Origin: a virus
IMG/VR virus record: IMGVR_UViG_3300031774_002334
Location: 1-25,065 of that record
Strand: one strand, 5' to 3'
DNA: 25,065 nucleotides
A program made the translations under genes and the position numbers. Below are positions 2,553 through 24,484 of this stretch, piece after piece (position 1 is the stretch's first letter; every line of letters begins with the position of its first letter). Below the pieces are notes generated by a model. The model was not told the DNA's origin, made no database searches, and worked only from the letters and a program-made list of their open reading frames with translations.

Positions 2553-2718
2553 GACTCCTTCACGCCAAACCGTTTATACAAATATTAACTAGGGGAAATT
2601 CCTCCTTAACCCATATAATTGTCACCAGTCGTATAGGTAATTTTACATATACAGTCTTAAAAATATCGGCGATTTGGTGAAGTTGTGTAAGTTGGAATTG
2701 TTTGAGGGAATCATTTAA

Positions 2719-2750
2719 GACCGAATAAGGTGTTACGGTCGTCGTTTTTT
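2719..2750 (+). terminator. Weak terminator candidate
   Basis: GACCG at 2719-2723 pairs with CGGTC at 2736-2740 and is followed after 4 bases by six T (2745-2750). The 5-base-pair stem is short and the T run is offset, so this is only a possible end of the + transcript from the genes ending at 2552. Confidence 0.35.
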
Positions 2751-2769
2751 AGATGGTCGTAATAGTTGC

Positions 2770-2876
2770 AACAAAAATTCTCAATAACAATCTCTCGACT
2801 ACTTCCGAGATGTCTCTCCTGAGGGAGAGCCACTCCTCGTGTCTCGAGAGTATTGAGTTAGAGAGAATTCGTTGTT
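2770..2876. ncRNA. Long imperfect hairpin, candidate structured RNA
   Basis: Nested complementary arms: AACAA 2770-2774 with TTGTT 2872-2876; AATTCTC 2776-2782 with GAGAATT 2863-2869; AATA 2783-2786 with TATT 2851-2854; CTCTCGA 2792-2798 with TCGAGAG 2844-2850; CGAG 2806-2809 with CTCG 2836-2839; and CTCTCC 2814-2819 with GGAGAG 2824-2829 around a TGAG loop. CTCAATA 2780-2786 can alternatively pair entirely with TATTGAG 2851-2857. No promoter is visible directly upstream, so it could be a processed 3' end, a small RNA, or a DNA element such as an origin or packaging site. The strand is undecided. Confidence 0.5.
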
Positions 2877-3045
2877 TGCGTTGTCAACTACTAGATTTAT
2901 ATATATTTTATCACACTTTTTAACATATTACAAGTATCATTTTTGCCTAGGTGGAAAGTACAACTGTCTGTATGCGCTTCATCTAACAAAAATAAAGTGC
3001 ATTTATGACTCGTTTAAAATAAAATTGTTTGCTCCAGAAGTGCAT

Positions 3046-3075
3046 GACCAACGCAGGTATGGTATCTGCTTGGTC
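3046..3075. other. Hairpin in the convergent region
   Basis: GACCAA at 3046-3051 pairs with TTGGTC at 3070-3075, and after one bulged C GCAG pairs with CTGC, leaving a loop of about 9 bases. It is directly followed by the second copy of the CTCGAGAG motif. There is no T run, so it is not an ordinary terminator on either strand. Confidence 0.45.
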
Positions 3076-3250
3076 TCGAGAGTGTTATTGTAGGTATTTT
3101 ACCAGTGATGAATTACGTTTGCAATAATAAAAACGCAAGTAAGTGCATTGAGAAGAAGGAAAATTGTACGAAGCACGGCTACCTTATCAGCATCTCTTTG
3201 AGTGCCTACCTTCGCCCCTAGGCTTTTCGCCCATAATGCCCAAAATGTCA

Positions 3251-3451
3251 TTATAATTGTTCCGACTCCGTAATTTTTCCAAGTTGAATTAATTCTTTGC
3301 GTACAGTATCCTTCAATGCCTTTGTACTTGGCATTGAGTCACCATAGAGTTCTCGACATTGCATCTCGAACTCTTCTTTCGCAAAGATACGTTCCCAGCT
3401 GTCTGAGAACTTCTTATGGTTTGTAGGTCGTTGCTTACTTCCCTTGCTCAT
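3251..3451 (-). CDS. Unknown basic protein, 66 residues
   Basis: The start lies at 3451 on the minus strand with GGGAGGAG about 9 bases upstream. The product begins MSKGSKQRPTNHKKFSDSW, a short basic N-terminus of a type I recall from other phage small proteins, and has Trp and Phe pairs in an otherwise charged helix. It is the last gene of the minus-strand island and overlaps the preceding small gene by 17 bases. Function unknown. Confidence 0.6.
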   Translation of the reverse strand: MSKGSKQRPTNHKKFSDSWERIFAKEEFEMQCRELYGDSMPSTKALKDTVRKELIQLGKITESEQL

Positions 3452-3575
3452 AGTTTTTAAACTCCTCCCATGAGAAGAAGTCCTTTCTTATGTGACACCA
3501 GAACTTGCCTTGGTATGCGTTGTGTTTTTCTTTTTTCAATTTATTTTCCTCGTCTATATAATAATGTACGTTCAT
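3435..3575 (-). CDS. Small protein, 46 residues, between bS21 and the last gene
   Basis: ATG at 3575-3573 overlaps the TGA of the bS21-like gene by 4 bases (ATGA), a classic coupled junction, and the frame ends at TAA 3437-3435 inside the next gene. The product is charged with a Trp/Phe-rich middle (AYQGKFWCHIRKDFFSWEEF). The overlaps at both ends complete a tightly tiled five-gene operon, which is the main argument that it is real. No family recognised. Confidence 0.6.
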   Translation of the reverse strand: MNVHYYIDEENKLKKEKHNAYQGKFWCHIRKDFFSWEEFKNYEQGK

Positions 3576-3790
3576 TTTAACCATCTTGGTTCAGGCTGAA
3601 GCCCTGCTTTTCTTTGTTTTTGTTTACAGCGAATCGTACCTGCTGCTTTCTTCTTGCGAAGTTTATCAGATCTTTTTGTAAAGTGTTGACGCTCTCGTAC
3701 CTCTTGTAGCTTGCCAGTCGCATCTACCTTACGTTTCCAGTTTCGAAGTGCTTGATCGAAACGACCTTTGTCTACTCGTACTGATGTCAA
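3572..3790 (-). CDS. rpsU: Phage-encoded ribosomal protein bS21 homologue
   Basis: The 72 residues show the bS21 pattern: a short beta-strand VRVDKG, then FDQALRNWKRKVDATGKL, then EVRERQHFTKRSDKLRKKKA, with a basic tail. Bacterial bS21 has the same F-x2-AL-x2-[WF]-KR, G-x-L-x-EVR-x-R and basic helix order at about the same length. bS21 binds the 30S platform beside the 3' end of 16S rRNA and affects start-site selection. The start is a TTG at 3790-3788 overlapping the stop of the upstream gene, with GAGG about 10 bases before it. Known family context: viral bS21 genes have been reported in marine phages and large phages. Inference: it is swapped into host ribosomes during infection. Confidence 0.8.
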   Translation of the reverse strand: MTSVRVDKGRFDQALRNWKRKVDATGKLQEVRERQHFTKRSDKLRKKKAAGTIRCKQKQRKAGLQPEPRWLK

Positions 3791-4059
3791 TTTAGATGTG
3801 CCTCGTCTGTCTTTGTAATGTTTTGCATTAGCCTGCCCAAGTCATTTGCGATACCAAGTTGGTTATCGAGCGTAACTTGGAGAAACTTTACAACCCATGC
3901 CATATCAAACAAAAATTGGTTGTTTTGTGTATCAATCCCTCTTTTTTCTAGTTCTTCAATGAGAAGCATAGAAAGCTCTTCATTGTGTTCCTTACTTCTT
4001 TTCATTGTTGTATAGTACTCTCCTGTAAACTCAACAACATTATCTTTCATTGGTTTCAT
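3787..4059 (-). CDS. Unknown helical protein, 90 residues
   Basis: ATG at 4059-4057 follows GGAGGTAAAAT, an excellent ribosome site that lies inside the end of the Myb-like gene. The product begins MKPMKDNVVEFTGEYY and then forms charged helices (EELSMLLIEELEKRGIDTQN). An in-frame second Met three codons in is an alternative start. No family recognised. It sits between the HTH gene and the bS21-like gene and overlaps the latter by 4 bases. Confidence 0.65.
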   Translation of the reverse strand: MKPMKDNVVEFTGEYYTTMKRSKEHNEELSMLLIEELEKRGIDTQNNQFLFDMAWVVKFLQVTLDNQLGIANDLGRLMQNITKTDEAHLN

Positions 4060-4062
4060 ATT

Positions 4063-4257
4063 TTACCTCCGAGTAGAGTCGAAACTCCACCCCTTTTTGC
4101 GTAATCGCTGAACTCTCCCTCGTATAGCGTCTTCACTTCGATTTAGTAGTATGGATATTTCTCTTACTGGGTGGCATCCGTAATATTCTTTTAGATGCAA
4201 GTCTTCTTTCTCTGTCCAACGAGGGTTTTTAATCTCATACTTCTTTTTTATTTTCAC
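4063..4257 (-). CDS. Myb/SANT or GcrA-like HTH protein, leaderless GTG start
   Basis: A 64-residue protein with one three-helix DNA-binding unit: PRWTEKEDLHLKEYYGCHPV (aromatic first helix), ISILLNRSEDAIRGRVQRLR (turn plus recognition helix) and a basic tail. The Trp-x-x-x-Glu-Asp opening is typical of Myb/SANT-like and GcrA-like HTH domains. The start is GTG at 4257-4255, only 6 bases after the -10 box of its promoter, so the message should have no leader. As the first gene of the minus-strand operon, it may regulate this island and the divergent + promoter. It is a relative of the proteins at 1901, 11976 and 15283. Confidence 0.7.
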   Translation of the reverse strand: MKIKKKYEIKNPRWTEKEDLHLKEYYGCHPVREISILLNRSEDAIRGRVQRLRKKGWSFDSTRR

Positions 4258-4263
4258 AGTTAT

Positions 4264-4292
4264 ATTTTATCAAATTCAGGAAAACAAGTCAA
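4264..4292 (-). promoter_or_regulatory. Sigma-70 promoter of the minus-strand bS21 operon
   Basis: On the minus strand TTGACT (4292-4287), a 17-base spacer and TAAAAT (4269-4264) precede the GTG at 4257 by 6 bases. This is the only promoter I see for the five-gene minus island. Its -35 box is 31 bases from the -35 box of the divergent + promoter, so one protein bound between could affect both. Confidence 0.85.
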
Positions 4293-4323
4293 GAACTTTT
4301 TTCGATTATGTGGTAAATATTTC

Positions 4324-4352
4324 TTGACTTTTATACTATATTTTGCTACAAT
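4324..4352 (+). promoter_or_regulatory. Sigma-70 promoter, divergent
   Basis: TTGACT 4324-4329, 17-base spacer, TACAAT 4347-4352. RNA should start near 4359 and give a leader of roughly 14 bases that is almost entirely an AGGAG ribosome site before ATG 4373. Confidence 0.85.
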
Positions 4353-4372
4353 ATATGCTCAGGAGAAAAATT

Positions 4373-4519
4373 ATGAATGAATATGAACTTATAGCGTATA
4401 TCCTAGTCCTCTCAGGAGTAGCATACACTTCTTTTAAGATTGGAGTGACAGAAGGAATACAAGATGCAATTTTTTACTTCGAAGAAAAAGGAGTGATAAA
4501 ACTCGACAAAGAGGACTAA
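4373..4519 (+). CDS. Small membrane-anchored protein, 48 residues
   Basis: ATG 4373 lies 7 bases after CAGGAG and behind its own promoter. Residues 5-20 are hydrophobic (LIAYILVLSGVAYTSF), followed by a charged helix (FYFEEKGVIKLDKED), so it is probably a one-span membrane protein with a cytoplasmic tail. A dedicated promoter on each side argues that it is expressed. No family recognised. Confidence 0.65.
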   Translation: MNEYELIAYILVLSGVAYTSFKIGVTEGIQDAIFYFEEKGVIKLDKED

Positions 4520-4530
4520 AAAAATTGTTC

Positions 4531-4559
4531 TTGACTTTCGGTGAAGTTTTTAGTATAAT
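4531..4559 (+). promoter_or_regulatory. Sigma-70 promoter of hsp20
   Basis: TTGACT 4531-4536, 17-base spacer, TATAAT 4554-4559. RNA should start near 4566, giving a leader of about 180 bases before hsp20. An ATG at 4566 falls at the predicted first base and opens a 7-codon frame that stops at 4589; this may be a leader peptide or chance. Confidence 0.88.
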
Positions 4560-4565
4560 ATAAGA

Positions 4566-4748
4566 ATGAAAAGTTCAGTTTTTAACTGAGCTGTTTCCAG
4601 AGCTACGTTCAGTAGAGGGCGGGATAGAAAGTATACTCACTTCTTTGCAATGAAGATGAAAATTAGTCAGTATACGGGATTTTCATTAATAGAGATGCCG
4701 AAAGGGTCTCATAGAGTCGTCCGAAAGGAGACTAACAGGAGAAATAAT
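4566..4748 (+). promoter_or_regulatory. Structured 5' leader of hsp20, possible RNA thermometer
   Basis: The leader folds into several hairpins: TCAGTT-TTT-AACTGA near 4574-4588; GTATAC 4631-4636 with GTATAC 4670-4675 around an inner CTTC/GAAG pair; and AGTC-G-TCC 4715-4722 with GGA-GACT 4727-4733 around a GAAA loop, ending 3 bases before the AGGAG at 4737-4741. GTCTC at 4706-4710 can instead pair with GAGAC at 4728-4732, so two exclusive folds exist next to the ribosome site. The ibpA-type small heat-shock genes of bacteria are known to use RNA thermometers; that this leader is one is inference. Confidence 0.45.
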
Positions 4749-5168
4749 ATGGTAGTACAATTACCAACAATACACGACCTTAACAGGTCATGGATTGGAG
4801 CAGATCGTTTTTTCGAAAGGTTCGCTTCAATGCCTACATACGAAGATAATTCGTATCCACGTTTTAATGTAACAAAGGACGGGGTGAAATATCAAATAGA
4901 GATTGCACTTGCGGGTTACAAAAAAGAGAATATAACCATCGAAAGGGTCGATGGAAGGCTTGAAATTCGTGGAGAAAAGAATCTGAAAGATGTGGCAGAC
5001 GAGTCATATTTACATAGAGGAATAACAAGAAAAGCTTTCAAACGAGCTTTCACTATTACAGATGATGTGCTAGTGGATGGAGCAGAGTTTATAGATGGCA
5101 TACTTACTGTTGACCTTCATGTGGAGATACCAGAAGAAAAAAGACCTAAAATTATAGATATCACATAA
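4749..5168 (+). CDS. hsp20: Small heat-shock protein, IbpA-type Hsp20
   Basis: A 139-residue alpha-crystallin-domain chaperone that would hold unfolding proteins until refolded. Visible family features: PRFNVTKDGVKYQIEIALAG, YKKENITIERVDGRLEIRGE, SYLHRGITRKAFKRAFTI, GAEFIDGILTVDL, and a C-terminal IPEEKRPKIIDI with the I-x-I anchor. The order and spacing match bacterial IbpA. The start at 4749 is chosen from AGGAG 7 bases upstream; the frame stays open for 33 codons upstream but without a ribosome site. Hsp20 genes are known from marine myoviruses. Expression is probably controlled by its own promoter and the long folded leader. Confidence 0.9.
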   Translation: MVVQLPTIHDLNRSWIGADRFFERFASMPTYEDNSYPRFNVTKDGVKYQIEIALAGYKKENITIERVDGRLEIRGEKNLKDVADESYLHRGITRKAFKRAFTITDDVLVDGAEFIDGILTVDLHVEIPEEKRPKIIDIT

Positions 5169-5375: not shown

Positions 5376-5675
5376 ATGATAACAATAACAGAATTAGCAA
5401 AGAATAAAATCACAGAGAGGCTAGGGAACGATTTCCTACGCCTCTCTCTTTCTGGTGGAGGTTGCAATGGCTTCCAATATTTGTGGGATATAGCAGATAT
5501 AGCAAATCCAGATGACCATGTAATAGACCAAGTTATAGTAGTAGACACACACAGTATGGGGTTTCTTCACGGATCTATCATAGATTGGAAAGAAACATTA
5601 GTAGAAACAGGGTTTGAAGTACACAACCCTAATGTTATAAGTGCCTGTGGGTGTGGCATTTCAATGGGATTTTAA
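5376..5675 (+). CDS. A-type iron-sulfur carrier protein (IscA/ErpA/HesB-like)
   Basis: The 99-residue protein has the three conserved cysteines of A-type carriers: C30 in GGGCNGFQY, and C91 and C93 in the C-terminal SACGCGISMGF. These normally hold a [2Fe-2S] or [4Fe-4S] cluster, or iron, for delivery to target enzymes. The segment GSIIDWKETLVETGFEVHNP also fits the family. ATG 5376 has no close Shine-Dalgarno; a TATAGT lies 7 bases upstream but without a -35 partner, so how it is translated is unclear. It directly abuts the lysozyme gene. In phages such proteins may help mature host or phage Fe-S enzymes (inference). Confidence 0.85.
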   Translation: MITITELAKNKITERLGNDFLRLSLSGGGCNGFQYLWDIADIANPDDHVIDQVIVVDTHSMGFLHGSIIDWKETLVETGFEVHNPNVISACGCGISMGF

Positions 5676-8055: not shown

Positions 8056-8084
8056 TTGACTTACAAACTTAAATTTAGTATAAT
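8056..8084 (+). promoter_or_regulatory. Sigma-70 promoter
   Basis: TTGACT 8056-8061, 17-base spacer, TATAAT 8079-8084. The ATG at 8092 follows after 7 bases, so the transcript should begin at or one base before the start codon. Confidence 0.9.
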
Positions 8085-8091
8085 ACTACTA

Positions 8092-8664
8092 ATGAATATT
8101 TTTATCTTAGACACCGACATTGACAAGTGTGCCGAGTACCATGTAGACAAACATATTGTAAAAATGCCTCTTGAGGCAGCACAAATGCTATGTACTACAC
8201 ATTGGATAGACCAGTATCTAGGATATAAACCAAGGAAATTAGAAAAGAATGAATTACAATTATTACGAGAGGTCAAAACTAAAGACCCCCGCTATGTACC
8301 TTATCTCCCTACTATGCATAACCACCCTTGTACCATCTGGGCAAGAGAGTCGCTCGATAACTACGAGTGGCTATACTGCTATGCACTCGCTCTCAATGAC
8401 GAGTATGGGTATAGATATGGAAAGACCCACAAGTCTGTGCAAGAGGTGGTACTTCGGTTACCCGACCTTAGACATATACCACGAATCGGGCTTACACCCT
8501 TTGCTATGGCAATGCCAGATGATCTTAAGTCCGATGACCCGATACAATCGTATCGCGACTTCTACCACTTTGACAAGGCAACATTTGCTAGCTGGAAAGG
8601 AAGAGACAAGCCAGTTTGGTGGGATGAGGAGTTAGCAGATTATGAGAATCGTATTACAAGATAA
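8092..8664 (+). CDS. Conserved viral protein of unknown function, leaderless
   Basis: A 190-residue protein opening MNIFILDTDIDKCAEYHVDK and continuing with the pattern H-x-VKM-x-LEAAQML. I recall a family of phage proteins with this N-terminus (D-x-CA-x-YH-x-DKH-x-VKM) and later NHPCTIWARES and YGYRYGKTHKS. Its invariant His, Asp, Lys and Cys suggest an enzyme or metal site, but I know no established function. The conserved N-terminal Met-Asn-Ile-Phe fixes the start at 8092, leaving no room for a Shine-Dalgarno between it and the -10 box. This is the best single case for leaderless translation in the window. Confidence 0.8.
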   Translation: MNIFILDTDIDKCAEYHVDKHIVKMPLEAAQMLCTTHWIDQYLGYKPRKLEKNELQLLREVKTKDPRYVPYLPTMHNHPCTIWARESLDNYEWLYCYALALNDEYGYRYGKTHKSVQEVVLRLPDLRHIPRIGLTPFAMAMPDDLKSDDPIQSYRDFYHFDKATFASWKGRDKPVWWDEELADYENRITR

Positions 8665-11599: not shown

Positions 11600-11628
11600 T
11601 TGACTTTTGGTTCGTAATTTAGTATAAT
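11600..11628 (+). promoter_or_regulatory. Sigma-70 promoter
   Basis: TTGACT 11600-11605, 17-base spacer, TATAAT 11623-11628. The ATG at 11636 follows after 7 bases, so the message should be leaderless or nearly so. The upstream AAATACTTCT is shared with other promoters of the window. Confidence 0.9.
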
Positions 11629-11635
11629 AGAAAAT

Positions 11636-11806
11636 ATGAATGAAAATACTGACAATAAACACGGCACACCCAGAAATGAGTACGAGAGAGAAATTAGAGA
11701 ACTCAATCGCAAAGTTTATAGTCTGTATCAGAAAGTAGAACAACTAATGAAGGAGAATCATGAACTGTCCAAATTGCAACAGTCTCAATATAAATCAGAG
11801 AGCTGA
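11636..11806 (+). CDS. Small charged coiled-coil protein, leaderless, 56 residues
   Basis: ATG 11636 falls where RNA should start and is followed by MNENTDNKHGTPRNEYEREI and a heptad-rich helix (RELNRKVYSLYQKVEQLMKE). It overlaps the zinc-ribbon gene by 47 bases and contains that gene's AAGGAG. Apart from its leaderless position, little supports a function. Confidence 0.55.
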   Translation: MNENTDNKHGTPRNEYEREIRELNRKVYSLYQKVEQLMKENHELSKLQQSQYKSES

Positions 11807-11940: not shown

Positions 11941-11969
11941 TTGACTTTATTAGAAATGTCTTCTATAAT
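11941..11969 (+). promoter_or_regulatory. Sigma-70 promoter
   Basis: TTGACT 11941-11946, 17-base spacer, TATAAT 11964-11969. The ATG at 11976 follows after 6 bases, making a leaderless message. Confidence 0.9.
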
Positions 11970-11975
11970 ATAAAT

Positions 11976-12413
11976 ATGGGAGACAGATTTTATCAACAAC
12001 AACTCGAAGCAACAGGGTCTTACCCTGGCTTTAGAGGTACAAAACGGAGACGAAGAATGGCTTGGACAGACGAATCAAAAGAACAAGCGGTTAAATTATA
12101 TACAGAAGCAGAACCTACTCCAGAAACAAGTATGGAAGTAGTGAAAGACATAGCTGAGGAATTAGGCGAGAGCCCAAATGGAGTCAGAATGATCTTAACA
12201 AGGGCTGGCGTATATGTTAAAAAGAATCCTTCAGCAGGTAGTTCATCAGGCGGCAGTACTGGTGGTGGTAGAGTAAGTAAAGATGCTATGCATCAAGAGC
12301 TTTCCGCTGCTATTACAGACGCAGGTCAAGAACCCGACATGGATATTATAACAAAGCTTTCAGGTAAAGCAGCACAATATCTAGCTGGAGTTATTAACGC
12401 AGTAAACGGTTAA
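11976..12413 (+). CDS. Myb/SANT-like HTH protein, leaderless, 145 residues
   Basis: An N-terminal segment (MGDRFYQQQLEATGSYPGFR, then a basic KRRRR) precedes a Myb-like unit starting MAWTDESKEQAVKLYTEAEP, continuing VVKDIAEELGESPNGVRMIL and TRAGVYVKK. A Gly/Ser linker (SAGSSSGGSTGGG) leads to a helical C-terminal domain. The core aligns by eye with the proteins at 1901 and 15283. I recall marine phage relatives with the same N-terminal extension, which supports the leaderless start at 11976; an internal ATG at 12060 after GGAGACGAAG is the alternative. A single-gene transcript: own promoter and own strong terminator, as expected for an abundant protein. Confidence 0.75.
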   Translation: MGDRFYQQQLEATGSYPGFRGTKRRRRMAWTDESKEQAVKLYTEAEPTPETSMEVVKDIAEELGESPNGVRMILTRAGVYVKKNPSAGSSSGGSTGGGRVSKDAMHQELSAAITDAGQEPDMDIITKLSGKAAQYLAGVINAVNG

Positions 12414-13128: not shown

Positions 13129-13157
13129 TTGATTTATCAAGCTATTGCCTTCATAAT
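13129..13157 (+). promoter_or_regulatory. Sigma-70 promoter
   Basis: TTGATT 13129-13134, 17-base spacer, CATAAT 13152-13157, each one mismatch from the local consensus. ATG at 13164 follows after 6 bases (leaderless). The AAATACTTCTTGA lead-in is the one found at the other promoters. Confidence 0.78.
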
Positions 13158-13163
13158 ATACAA

Positions 13164-13481
13164 ATGGCAATAATATATGGAAACATGAGATACAGTTTTA
13201 AAGGAAAGAAACGTAAGCCACTTCCACGCAAGTCGAAGAAAGCTATACGCAGACCGCAAACTAAAGCAAAGATATCCTTACATGCACGAATTCGCATGGA
13301 GGCAATGAACGCACATACCGAGAAGTACCCTTCTTGGGAAGGCGACAAACTATCACCTTGTGTACTCGAGGACGATTCTTACAAAGAAGAAGCCAAACGC
13401 AAGTACACAGTAGCGATACCTTACAACAAAGGTAGCTATCAGGTAGTTCCTATCGAAGATTTAGAACATATCGGAAAATAA
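13164..13481 (+). CDS. Basic small protein, leaderless, 105 residues
   Basis: ATG 13164 lies at the predicted RNA start. The first 45 residues are very basic (KGKKRKPLPRKSKKAIRRPQ), then a mixed helix and a beta-rich end (YTVAIPYNKGSYQVVPIEDL). Such a basic N-terminus suggests DNA or RNA binding. An internal ATG at 13185 is possible but has no ribosome site either. Family not recognised. It ends 3 bases before the ligase promoter. Confidence 0.6.
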   Translation: MAIIYGNMRYSFKGKKRKPLPRKSKKAIRRPQTKAKISLHARIRMEAMNAHTEKYPSWEGDKLSPCVLEDDSYKEEAKRKYTVAIPYNKGSYQVVPIEDLEHIGK

Positions 13482-13484
13482 TTC

Positions 13485-13513
13485 TTGACTTGGAAGTTGT
13501 ATTTTGATATAAT
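13485..13513 (+). promoter_or_regulatory. Sigma-70 promoter of the ligase N-terminal gene
   Basis: TTGACT 13485-13490, 17-base spacer, TATAAT 13508-13513. ATG 13520 follows after 6 bases, so the ligase message is leaderless. Confidence 0.92.
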
Positions 13514-13519
13514 ATATAA

Positions 13520-14461
13520 ATGGAAAATTTAACGAAGTTACTAGATAAAGCGAGCGAAGGTTACTACGCAGGCATACCAACACTATCAGACGAAGAGTTC
13601 GATAGACTAGCACAAATTGCTCAGTATGCCAAAGTTGGTTCACCTAGCGGTAGAACACCACACGCTTTTCCTATGTATTCACTTCAGAAAGTTTTTAAAG
13701 GGGACGATAAAAATCCCCTTCCATACGGGGACGTAGTAGTCACACCTAAATTAGACGGATCAGCAGTATCATTACTGTATGTAGAGGGAGAGCTTTCACA
13801 AGTTCTTACTCGAGGAGATGGGAAGACAGGGTTGGATATTACAGATAAGTTCCTTGCATGGAATAATATACCTAAAAAGATAGACATTACGTCTAAGCTT
13901 TTTCAAGTCACGGGGGAGGTAGTTGCTCCCAAATCCGTACCCAATTCGAGAAATTATGCTGCAGGTGCTTTAAACCTGAAAGATATTCCCGAGTTTCTCT
14001 CCCGAGACTTGTTTTTTGTAGCGTATGGTATAGAGCCTAGCCCTATGCAGAAGTGGACAGGAGACATGGACTTATTAGATCGTCATGGATTCAGTACTGT
14101 AATGAAGGAGGGATTATCGCAATTTCCTCACGATGGTACAGTATGGAGAGTCAATGACAACCAACAATTTAAAAGTCTGGGTTATACAGCTCACCACCCA
14201 AGAGGGGCATTTGCATTAAAAGAACAGAAAGAAGGTGTTATCACAACTTTGCTAGATGTCGTATGGCAAGTAGGAAAGTCAGGAGTGGTCTCGCCAGTAG
14301 CTATTCTAGAACCTTGTGTAATAGGAGAGGCTACAGTTAGTAGAGCAACGCTACACAATAAGTCTTACATTGAAGCACTCGGACTTTACATAGGTTGTAA
14401 GGTAGAGGTTATCAGGTCAGGAGAAATAATTCCTAGAATTGTAGGACTTGCAGAAAAATAA
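13520..14461 (+). CDS. NAD+-dependent DNA ligase, N-terminal subunit (adenylation and OB)
   Basis: A 313-residue protein matching the first half of bacterial LigA. It shows a shortened NAD-binding Ia region (YYAGIPTLSDEEFDRLAQ), the adenylation motif VVTPKLDGSAVSLLY with the nucleophile K77, TRGDGKTGLDIT, SRNYAAGALNLKD, and the OB-fold block VGKSGVVSPVAILEPC, TVSRATLHN and VIRSGEIIPRI. It stops exactly at the end of the OB fold. The zinc finger, HhH and BRCT domains are encoded by the next gene. A two-gene NAD+ ligase is also annotated in phage T5. Role: sealing nicks at replication and repair. Starts leaderless. Confidence 0.88.
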   Translation: MENLTKLLDKASEGYYAGIPTLSDEEFDRLAQIAQYAKVGSPSGRTPHAFPMYSLQKVFKGDDKNPLPYGDVVVTPKLDGSAVSLLYVEGELSQVLTRGDGKTGLDITDKFLAWNNIPKKIDITSKLFQVTGEVVAPKSVPNSRNYAAGALNLKDIPEFLSRDLFFVAYGIEPSPMQKWTGDMDLLDRHGFSTVMKEGLSQFPHDGTVWRVNDNQQFKSLGYTAHHPRGAFALKEQKEGVITTLLDVVWQVGKSGVVSPVAILEPCVIGEATVSRATLHNKSYIEALGLYIGCKVEVIRSGEIIPRIVGLAEK

Positions 14462-14464
14462 ATC

Positions 14465-14493
14465 TTGACATTTGATGTCAGATTTAGTATAAT
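14465..14493 (+). promoter_or_regulatory. Sigma-70 promoter between the ligase halves
   Basis: TTGACA 14465-14470, 17-base spacer, TATAAT 14488-14493, starting 4 bases after the stop of the first ligase gene. The next ATG is 23 bases downstream, so this message has a short leader with only a weak AGAG. Confidence 0.92.
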
Positions 14494-14516
14494 ATAATAA
14501 TTGATAAAAAGAGTAG

Positions 14517-15296
14517 ATGAAACAACAAGCAATAGAAATTCCTGATGTATGCCCTTCGTGTGGCACATCATTAAAGTTGATAAATGATCAGCTTTATTGC
14601 AACAACCCAAGTTGCCCAGCAAAGAATTCAAAGATTGTAGAAGGTTTTGCTAAAACTCTTAGAATCAAAGGTCTTGGAACAAAGACCATAGAAAAACTTG
14701 ATTTACAGTATATAGAAGATATATACCTGTTGACACCCGAGTTTATAGAGGAAAGGCTAGGTTCAGAGAAACTAGCAACGAAGTTAGTAAATGAAATCGA
14801 ATTAAGTAAAAATGCTAATCTTCAAGAGTTACTACCAGCCTTTGCCATACCACTTTTTGGATCTACAGCTTCTCAAAAATTATGCAATACGATTAGTCAC
14901 ATTGATGAATTAACCGAGAAGAGATGTAGTGAAGCGGGGTTAGGTCCAAAAGTTACAACTAATATCTGTAGTTGGTATGAAACAGCATACAAAAACGGAT
15001 ACAAAGACTTACCTTTCACATGGAAAGCAGATATTTTCGAAGGAGTACCAGTCGTAGATATAAACGAAGTAGTTTGTATCTCGGGACGCTTGACTTCATA
15101 TAAAACGAAAGCAGACGCAAAGAAAGAATTAGAGAGATATGGATATCGAGTAAAAGATACTTTAACAAAAGATGTAACCATCCTAATTAATGAAAGTGGC
15201 ACAGCCTCAAGTAAGACAAAGTCAGCAGAATCAAAAGGAATAAAAATAGTAACAAATATAAAACAGCTAATTGGAGAAAATAATGGCAGTACCTAA
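14517..15296 (+). CDS. NAD+-dependent DNA ligase, C-terminal subunit (zinc finger, HhH, BRCT)
   Basis: A 259-residue protein matching the second half of LigA: a C4 zinc finger (C12, C15, C28, C33; CPSCGTSLKL and YCNNPSCPAKN), helix-hairpin-helix repeats (LRIKGLGTKTIEKLDL and later segments up to about residue 150), and a BRCT domain from about 175 to 250 (VVCISGRLTSYKTKADAKKE through GIKIVTNIKQL). An in-frame stop just upstream fixes the start at 14517. The two products together rebuild a full ligase apart from the short Ia region. It overlaps the HTH gene by 14 bases and shares a transcript with it. Confidence 0.87.
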   Translation: MKQQAIEIPDVCPSCGTSLKLINDQLYCNNPSCPAKNSKIVEGFAKTLRIKGLGTKTIEKLDLQYIEDIYLLTPEFIEERLGSEKLATKLVNEIELSKNANLQELLPAFAIPLFGSTASQKLCNTISHIDELTEKRCSEAGLGPKVTTNICSWYETAYKNGYKDLPFTWKADIFEGVPVVDINEVVCISGRLTSYKTKADAKKELERYGYRVKDTLTKDVTILINESGTASSKTKSAESKGIKIVTNIKQLIGENNGST

Positions 15297-22904: not shown

Positions 22905-22933
22905 TTGACAGGAGTTGAATTTTTTAGTATAAT
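22905..22933 (+). promoter_or_regulatory. Sigma-70 promoter
   Basis: TTGACA 22905-22910, 17-base spacer, TATAAT 22928-22933, with the AAATACTTCTTGAC lead-in common to this window. RNA should start near 22940, slightly downstream of the ATG at 22936 of the next gene. Confidence 0.9.
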
Positions 22934-22935
22934 AT

Positions 22936-23334
22936 ATGATACGATATAATTGGAAAAAGATCGCTAAAGACAGTAATAATAAGGTTTCAGACATCTTACT
23001 TATAGTGTGGTACATTACTTATGAGTACCCACCTACAAGCAAGCGTGACAGACTCTTTAAATTTTACGGAAAAGATTATTCAGGTGACAGTTTTTTACTT
23101 AATCCTGAGTTTATCTACAAGCATCGTAAGTCTGCTTCTGACTCAGAATGGGCTGAATACATTGCCGTAGCATCTTATAGAAGTTATAACGAATATTTAA
23201 CAACAAATAAATTAACTATAGAACTAGCACAGCTTCCCAAAGCCGTGCAGAACATAATTAAAATGAATAGGCTACTCAAAGTTGAAGATGATAAAGTTTA
23301 TTTTCAGTATGAGAAGTCACAAAAGGAGAAATAA
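22936..23334 (+). CDS. Unknown protein, 132 residues
   Basis: ATG 22936 is the only AUG-type start in a frame that is closed by TAA at 22930, yet it lies only 2 bases after the -10 box and has no Shine-Dalgarno. The product is soluble and helical, with aromatic patches (ILLIVWYITYEYPPTSKRDR, SDSEWAEYIAVASYRSYNEY). It may be read from transcripts coming through from the helicase gene, or begin at the next codon (ATA) on the local transcript. No family recognised. The ssDNA-binding-like gene follows 2 bases after it. Confidence 0.65.
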   Translation: MIRYNWKKIAKDSNNKVSDILLIVWYITYEYPPTSKRDRLFKFYGKDYSGDSFLLNPEFIYKHRKSASDSEWAEYIAVASYRSYNEYLTTNKLTIELAQLPKAVQNIIKMNRLLKVEDDKVYFQYEKSQKEK

Positions 23335-23336
23335 AA

Positions 23337-23981
23337 ATGGCATTAAAATTTGCACAATTAGAAGGTAAGGCTAAAAAGTCTTCCATAAATCAGTTTCAAT
23401 ATCAAGACGGTGATAACGTCGTAAGAATGGTAGGAGATATCCTTCCTAGATACGTATATTGGATAAAAGGTGAGAACGCAAAGAACATTCCTATGGAGTG
23501 TCTTTCCTTCAATCGTTCTACAGAATCTTTTGACAACAAAGAAAAAGATTGGGTAAAAGACTACCACCCAGAAATGAAATGTGGTTGGTCATATGCAATA
23601 CAATGTATTGACCCAAAAGATAGTCAAGTCAAAGTCCTCAACTTAAAGAAAAAACTACTGGAGCAAGTAATGCTTGCTGCTGAAGACCTCGGCGACCCTA
23701 CAGATCCTGAAACAGGATGGGACGTTCACTTTAAAAGAGTTAAGACTGGACCAATGGCTTTCAACGTCGAGTACCAACTACAAGTACTTAGATGTAAAAC
23801 TAGAGCATTAGATGAGTCGGAAAAAGAGTTGATAGAAGGCTTGAAGTCTATGGATGAAGTACTTCCTAGACCAAGCGCAGATGCTCAAAAAGAACTTCTT
23901 GATAGAGTTAGATCAGGTAGCAATGAGTCTCCTGATGCAGAAGTTGCCTCTGAATTTTCAGATGGAGAACAAAAATGGTAG
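23337..23981 (+). CDS. ssDNA-binding protein-like (gp32/gp2.5 analogue)
   Basis: A 214-residue protein with ATG 7 bases after AAAGGAGA. The core is beta-rich (NVVRMVGDILPRYVYWIKGE, MECLSFNR, MKCGWSYAIQCIDPKDSQVK), then GPMAFNVEYQLQVLRCK, and the C-terminus is acidic and flexible (ESPDAEVASEFSDGEQKW). This shape, with an OB-like core, an acidic tail, and a place between a helicase and a recombination nuclease, fits a phage ssDNA-binding protein. There is no decisive motif visible, so the call is from layout and recalled relatives. It overlaps the peroxiredoxin gene by 7 bases. Confidence 0.65.
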   Translation: MALKFAQLEGKAKKSSINQFQYQDGDNVVRMVGDILPRYVYWIKGENAKNIPMECLSFNRSTESFDNKEKDWVKDYHPEMKCGWSYAIQCIDPKDSQVKVLNLKKKLLEQVMLAAEDLGDPTDPETGWDVHFKRVKTGPMAFNVEYQLQVLRCKTRALDESEKELIEGLKSMDEVLPRPSADAQKELLDRVRSGSNESPDAEVASEFSDGEQKW

Positions 23982-24484
23982 TTGTAGGACAAGAGTTTCC
24001 TGAGTTTAAAATGAACACTTGCGAAAGCGATAATTCATTAGGCTCAATAACTCAAAACGATATTGATTCTGAGTGGACTATAGTATACTTTTATCCAAAA
24101 GACTTTACATTTATATGTCCTACAGAGATTGCAGCTTTTGATGAACTATCAAGTGCTGCTCAAATAATCGGAGTGAGTGGAGACAATGAGTTTTGCAAAC
24201 TTGCTTGGAAACAAGATAGTGACCTTATCAGAGATATAGATCACACACTTGCAGCAGATTCAGGCATGGCCTTAGGCTATGAACTAGGAATAGTAAGTGA
24301 AGAAGAAGGTGTTCATTATAGAGCAACCTATATTATAGACCCGAATAATATAGTGCAGCATGTATCAATAAATGCATTAGATACAGGCAGAAGTGCAAAA
24401 GAGATAAAAAGAACTCTTGCGGCACTTCAAGCGGGCGGTTTAACAGGTTGCAGTTGGCAACTAGGAGATGATTTCGTAGCATGA
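23975..24484 (+). CDS. 2-Cys peroxiredoxin (AhpC/Prx-type)
   Basis: A 169-residue thiol peroxidase that reduces H2O2 and organic peroxides. The active site is YFYPKDFTFICPTEIAAFDE with P41, T45 and the peroxidatic C48. Family motifs continue with IIGVSGDNEFCKLAWK and YRATYIIDPNNIVQHVSI. A C-terminal C159 in LTGCSWQLGDDF is the likely resolving Cys (family pattern C-x2-W-x-x-G). ATG 23975 overlaps the previous gene, with GGAG upstream. It is odd to see it tiled between DNA-processing genes. Inference: protects phage DNA synthesis or the infected host from oxidative stress. Confidence 0.9.
   Translation: MVVVGQEFPEFKMNTCESDNSLGSITQNDIDSEWTIVYFYPKDFTFICPTEIAAFDELSSAAQIIGVSGDNEFCKLAWKQDSDLIRDIDHTLAADSGMALGYELGIVSEEEGVHYRATYIIDPNNIVQHVSINALDTGRSAKEIKRTLAALQAGGLTGCSWQLGDDFVA

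Follow-up and report, generated by a model that had tools for sequence, protein, structure and literature searches.

The 25,065-base stretch of DNA analysed here, referred to as the window, most probably (at a probability of about 0.6) carries an ordinary virus-encoded bS21 gene, conserved in the early region, together with a separate and independent trait, the loss of leaders from messages of a repeated promoter class. The two reside in one genome, and a functional link between them is not supported. The preliminary description had joined them, proposing that phage bS21 could shift initiation toward phage messages, either of the leaderless or of the Shine-Dalgarno (SD) class: its identification of the protein and its leaderless class, the latter as a prediction, were both borne out, while the connection drawn between the two was not.

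Among ribosomal proteins encoded by viruses, bS21 is the most frequent. The 72-aa product of the gene at 3572-3790 (minus strand) was recognized as bS21 by a profile search, in which Pfam family PF01165 (Ribosomal_S21) matched residues 3-50 with 45.4 bits, over a curated cut-off of 27; matches to PHROG 21469 'ribosomal protein S21' and to solved bS21 chains (best 7.9e-7) agree with this assignment. The basic core F-ALR-K-R ... R-R-K is present, and in the alignment of bS21 sequences (A1) residues L15, R16, K39 and R54 are invariant, F11, K21 and R32 almost invariant. Conservation is concentrated in the half containing the RNA-binding core; the C-terminal third is strongly divergent between phage clades. 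The gene is under strong purifying selection, synonymous changes being far more frequent than non-synonymous ones, with omega values between 0.03 and 0.11 for the pairs with unsaturated dS. No relative was found in bacterial genomes by using the protein as query. A Sphingobacteriales MAG (L349) carries a second, phage-like bS21 beside one of the Bacteroidetes type (L350); it is probably a mis-binned phage contig.

The window comes from a group of uncultivated marine phages whose replication genes resemble those of T5. Identity between the window polymerase and those of T5-family phages is about 42%, and the genes follow the order of the T5 early region: D3-like, ligA, ligB, D5-like, DnaB helicase, primase, polymerase, D10-like helicase. 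Both features used as a criterion for Demerecviridae, the T5-like order of early and replication genes and a split NAD ligase, are present in this 25-kb fragment. Four auxiliary genes were annotated, coding for PPK2 (209-847), Hsp20 (4749-5168), an IscA-like protein, assigned from its sequence (5376-5675), and a peroxiredoxin (23975-24484). The closest bacterial matches of the latter, at 58-59% identity, fall in a SAR86 MAG and in a Sphingobacteriales MAG contig, and were judged too weak to indicate the host. Rfam and tRNA scans of the whole window found nothing.

Eleven copies of a single stereotyped sigma-70-like motif, aAAATAnTTC-TTGACw-N17-TATAATA, are present in the window, and further ones throughout related contigs; the 44-bp matrix describing it finds these 11 strong sites in the window versus about none in shuffled sequence. 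At 6 of the 11 promoters a start codon (ATG or GTG) is located at a distance d of 6-7 nt past the -10 element. The six predicted leaderless starts are the GTG at 4257, on the minus strand, and five ATGs on the plus strand, given here with the range covering promoter and start codon: 8092 (8056-8094), opening the gene of a PHROG 624 DNA-binding protein (8092-8664) whose N-terminus, MNIFILD, is retained in relatives; 11636 (11600-11638); 11976 (11941-11978), opening the T5 D3-like gene; 13164 (13129-13166); and 13520 (13485-13522), opening ligA. A SD sequence at suitable spacing precedes 32 of the 49 window genes (65%), versus 15% of background ATGs, and none of these six starts.

Four further members of the class, all on the plus strand, are followed by leaders: 4324-4375, with SD AGGAG and ATG at 4373; 14465-14519, with a 23-nt leader before the ligB ATG at 14517; 4531-4751, with a structured leader of about 180 nt before the hsp20 ATG at 4749; and 1129-1200, where a hairpin is followed by AGGAG. 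The remaining one (22905-22938, plus strand) is ambiguous: its ATG is placed just 2 nt past the -10 element and precedes the predicted transcription start, and it was therefore left out of the leaderless count. This promoter is found group-wide, with a gene starting 0-2 nt past the -10 element and a start codon kept in relatives.

Two of the leadered sites have features of their own. The hsp20 leader (4566-4748) contains a highly conserved core and several hairpins whose loops read CCGAAAGG; across five relatives, both partners have changed in 14 predicted pairs, the folding z-score is -3.06 and no Rfam match was obtained. It is possibly an undescribed cis-regulatory RNA. At about 1195-1474 a conserved frame follows the AGGAG, with no ATG, GTG or TTG nearby; the only candidate starts, ATT or ATA, are the same in several relatives, and this frame possibly uses a non-canonical start.

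The position of the start codons was evaluated over 253 promoters of the group, collapsed at 85% identity, by counting the ATGs which open ORFs of at least 40 aa. The counts were 42 for d=6 and 13 for d=7, whereas positions from d=3 to d=5 had 0-1 each and those from d=8 to d=18 about 2 each. This peak lies beyond the reach of the matrix, which extends only over d=0-2, and is thus independent of the way in which sites were found. At promoters without a start codon there, A is still favoured at d=6 (64%), often as TATA, which provides an independent mark of the transcription start. Taken together, the ATG peak and the preference for A make the class best read as producing leaderless messages, with 5' ends that are predicted from the sequence. 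The proposal that such a class exists in the same phage as bS21 is thus sustained.

The promoter of the bS21 operon (4255-4304, minus strand) belongs to this class. Its -35 element, TTGACT (4292-4287), is separated by N17 from the -10 element, TAAAAT (4269-4264), and the GTG at 4257-4255 follows after 6 nt, placing the start of the first gene (4063-4257) at the predicted +1. This gene codes for a small HTH DNA-binding protein, D5-like by its match to PHROG 323 (6.6e-10), and is predicted to be leaderless, as the preliminary description had it. GTG is poorly tolerated as the start of leaderless mRNAs in E. coli. The same reading applies to seven close relatives, either with GTG at d=6 (L002, L010, L012) or with ATG at d=7 (L003, L007-L009). 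In three others (L006, L011, L013) the head of the operon has a leader of about 20 nt with a SD-like AAGGA, and bS21 is about 90% identical; the head is also leadered in G007, where a SD is present, and in G012-G014.

The second gene of the operon (3787-4059), which has no assigned function, is preceded by the SD GGAGGT and ends at the start of bS21. The latter is a TTG at 3790, overlapping the upstream stop codon (TTGA), an arrangement kept in 12 close relatives, and GAGG is found 10 nt 5' of it. In distant relatives bS21 is likewise preceded by SD sequences, AAGGAG in G014 and GGAGGTGA in G048. bS21, third in the operon and started at a coupled TTG with an upstream GAGG, is therefore not itself leaderless. 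Three small genes follow on the same strand, at 3435-3584, overlapping the end of bS21, at 3251-3451, and at 3099-3251, the last matching PHROG 1679, without assigned function (5.9e-15). Beyond the operon, about 550 bases (2553-3098) contain no clear gene, and many related contigs stop nearby, suggesting that the region is variable or that a repeat has its boundary here.

If phage bS21 were linked to leaderless initiation, its presence would be expected to track the number of leaderless promoters. It does not. All 11 contigs spanning the locus from the HTH gene to hsp20, namely the window and ten polymerase relatives (G004, G007, G010, G012, G013, G014, G021, G028, G040, G048), contain bS21. 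Contigs found independently, through homologues of gene 6626, included no bS21-negative member of the group: those reaching the locus have bS21, and the inspected ones without it either stop short or have no group neighbourhood. While bS21 is constant, leaderless starts run from 0 to 7 per contig. The window clade has 6-7 per contig; individual values are 6 of 11 promoters in the window, 7 in G004, 7 in G010, 5 in G007, 6 in G028, 3 each in G012, G021 and G048, and 2 in G040. None is found, despite the presence of bS21, among 9 promoters in G013, 8 in G014 and 3 in L152. In G013 and G014 the position d=6 is usually occupied by ATA, and the gene starts farther 3', often behind a SD. In bS21 phages outside the group the promoter motif is rare, and in most of them absent. 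Neither T5 nor Vibrio phage PG07 has bS21, and both have almost no leaderless starts. With bS21 invariant among group members, a contrast that favours a link is left only in this last case: the two traits coincide once, at the deepest split, between T5/PG07 and the marine group, which is a single event. The comparison is one of contig fragments, predicted promoters and starts, and few independent clades.

Loss of leaders gene by gene explains the distribution without a need for bS21. As in T5, the NAD-dependent DNA ligase of the window is encoded by two genes (13520-15296) with separate promoters; the window ligA is leaderless, and its ligB has a leader. The orthologous ligA is leadered in G013, G014, G016, G017 and T5. 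In T5, the promoters of D2, ligA and ligB show an equally spaced initiator, ATAAAT; leaders come next, containing a SD at D2 and ligB. The initiator A of the group promoter would lie about 6 nt past the -10 element, and in some lineages a leader of 20-30 nt with its SD would have collapsed, so that the ATG lands on the initiator. Sequence comparison with the T5 and sister-clade orthologues shows this collapse, the positions of the transcript starts being predicted.

As to the function of the protein, it is an established proposal that phage bS21 takes the place of the host protein (PMC6375957, PMC9723584), and the present case is in keeping with it. Most likely the phage protein would exchange with its host counterpart on 30S subunits, and would keep or raise SD-dependent initiation, used by most genes of the phage. 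bS21 has been described as required for canonical SD-led mRNAs (PMC4929434). The bS21 of Pelagibacter phage HTVC008M enters E. coli ribosomes, whose activity with a GFP template is then about 5% (PMC6375957); this does not show enhanced initiation, and counts against the reading preferred here.

Among the alternatives, the protein may be a limiting, loosely bound subunit, supplied during infection to adjust dosage with no change in the choice of messages. bS21 is among the most exchangeable ribosomal proteins (PMC6375957), and both its location in the early region and the conservation of the RNA-binding half are consistent with such a role, but the strong divergence of the C-terminal third between phage clades may mean a specialised function, and we regard this alternative as rather unlikely. 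It is doubtful that ribosomes carrying phage bS21 have an altered preference for leaderless versus SD-led mRNAs and thereby sort phage messages. Under such sorting, leaderless early messages would be translated whatever the state of bS21, and SD-led ones after build-up of the phage protein. Early genes would in that case be shielded from the remodelling of ribosomes by their leaderless messages, in the window clade at least.

A retuning of ribosomes in favour of leaderless phage messages, with the two traits evolved together, is improbable. It draws on the presence of both traits in the marine group and their near absence from T5 and PG07, and on the predicted leaderless head of the bS21 operon in the window clade. 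Also in its favour, E. coli ribosomes with phage bS21 were impaired by about 95% on the template assayed, one for GFP and not a leaderless one (PMC6375957). Against it, leaderless starts fall from 7 to 0 with bS21 constant, the head of the operon goes to a leader with SD while bS21 is kept, and the class is missing from bS21 phages of other groups. The same observations leave the functional link envisaged in the preliminary description unsupported. Published evidence also points away from it: E. coli 61S ribosomes, which lack bS21, bS1, uS2 and other proteins, translate leaderless mRNA selectively (PMC4929434, PMC7069363), so that absence of bS21, not its presence, goes with leaderless selectivity. 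No paper tying phage bS21 to leaderless mRNA was found in the literature.

Similarly improbable is a sequestration of the anti-SD, by which phage bS21 would turn initiation away from SD-led host messages as in Bacteroidia. In Flavobacterium johnsoniae bS21 contributes to masking the anti-SD, its Tyr54 being stacked on the 16S tail, and the bS21s of Bacteroidetes phages have the aromatic residue (PMC9976891, PMC9723584). In the present group, the column aligned to Tyr54 contains I, A, L, K or R, never an aromatic residue, which makes this mode unlikely; moreover, phage genes are mostly SD-led, and the F. johnsoniae chain (7jil) ranks last among the solved bS21s and aligns only to residue 46. 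An extraribosomal role, such as binding of RNA or control of phage transcription, would agree with the HTH protein encoded in the same operon and with the reported presence of bS21 in a non-ribosomal RNP, the OLE complex (PMC12054373), but the bS21 of another phage has been shown to incorporate into ribosomes (PMC6375957), and such a role is very improbable.

Preference thus remains with an ordinary viral bS21 and a separate loss of leaders. The negative result matters, as a link between bS21 and leaderless starts should not rest on their co-occurrence in a single genome. The group offers a natural contrast, in which one promoter drives both leaderless and SD-led messages while all close relatives keep bS21; as the same gene may be leaderless in one close relative and SD-led in another, the question of what phage bS21 does to message choice is testable with one set of templates.

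In comparison with known systems, T5 (Demerecviridae) shares with the window the order D3, ligA, ligB, D5, D6 helicase, primase, pol, D10, and has promoters 5' of the same genes with the initiator A at equal spacing; unlike the window, it has no bS21, and leaders of about 20-30 nt, in most cases with a SD, follow its promoters. Lambda cI is an example of a phage leaderless mRNA. PY54 cro is another (PMC4488713). In both, the start codon is at or near the 5' end of the transcript, as predicted here; in the window, however, leaderless starts form a repeated class with near-identical promoters, several per genome, and are predicted from sequence only. The marine phage bS21s previously described (Pelagibacter phage HTVC008M, pelagiphage Kolga and metagenomic phages; PMC6375957, PMC8163748) are aquatic members of the same Pfam family, similarly under purifying selection and proposed to replace host bS21; that of the window differs in being a conserved early-region gene of a T5-like replication group, within an operon encoding an HTH protein. 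The Bacteroidetes phage bS21 (PMC9723584) is likewise encoded on the reverse strand and proposed to substitute in ribosomes, but its neighbours are terminase and capsid genes, its expression is late and the Tyr54-like aromatic residue is retained, whereas the bS21 of the window is found among early genes and has no such residue.
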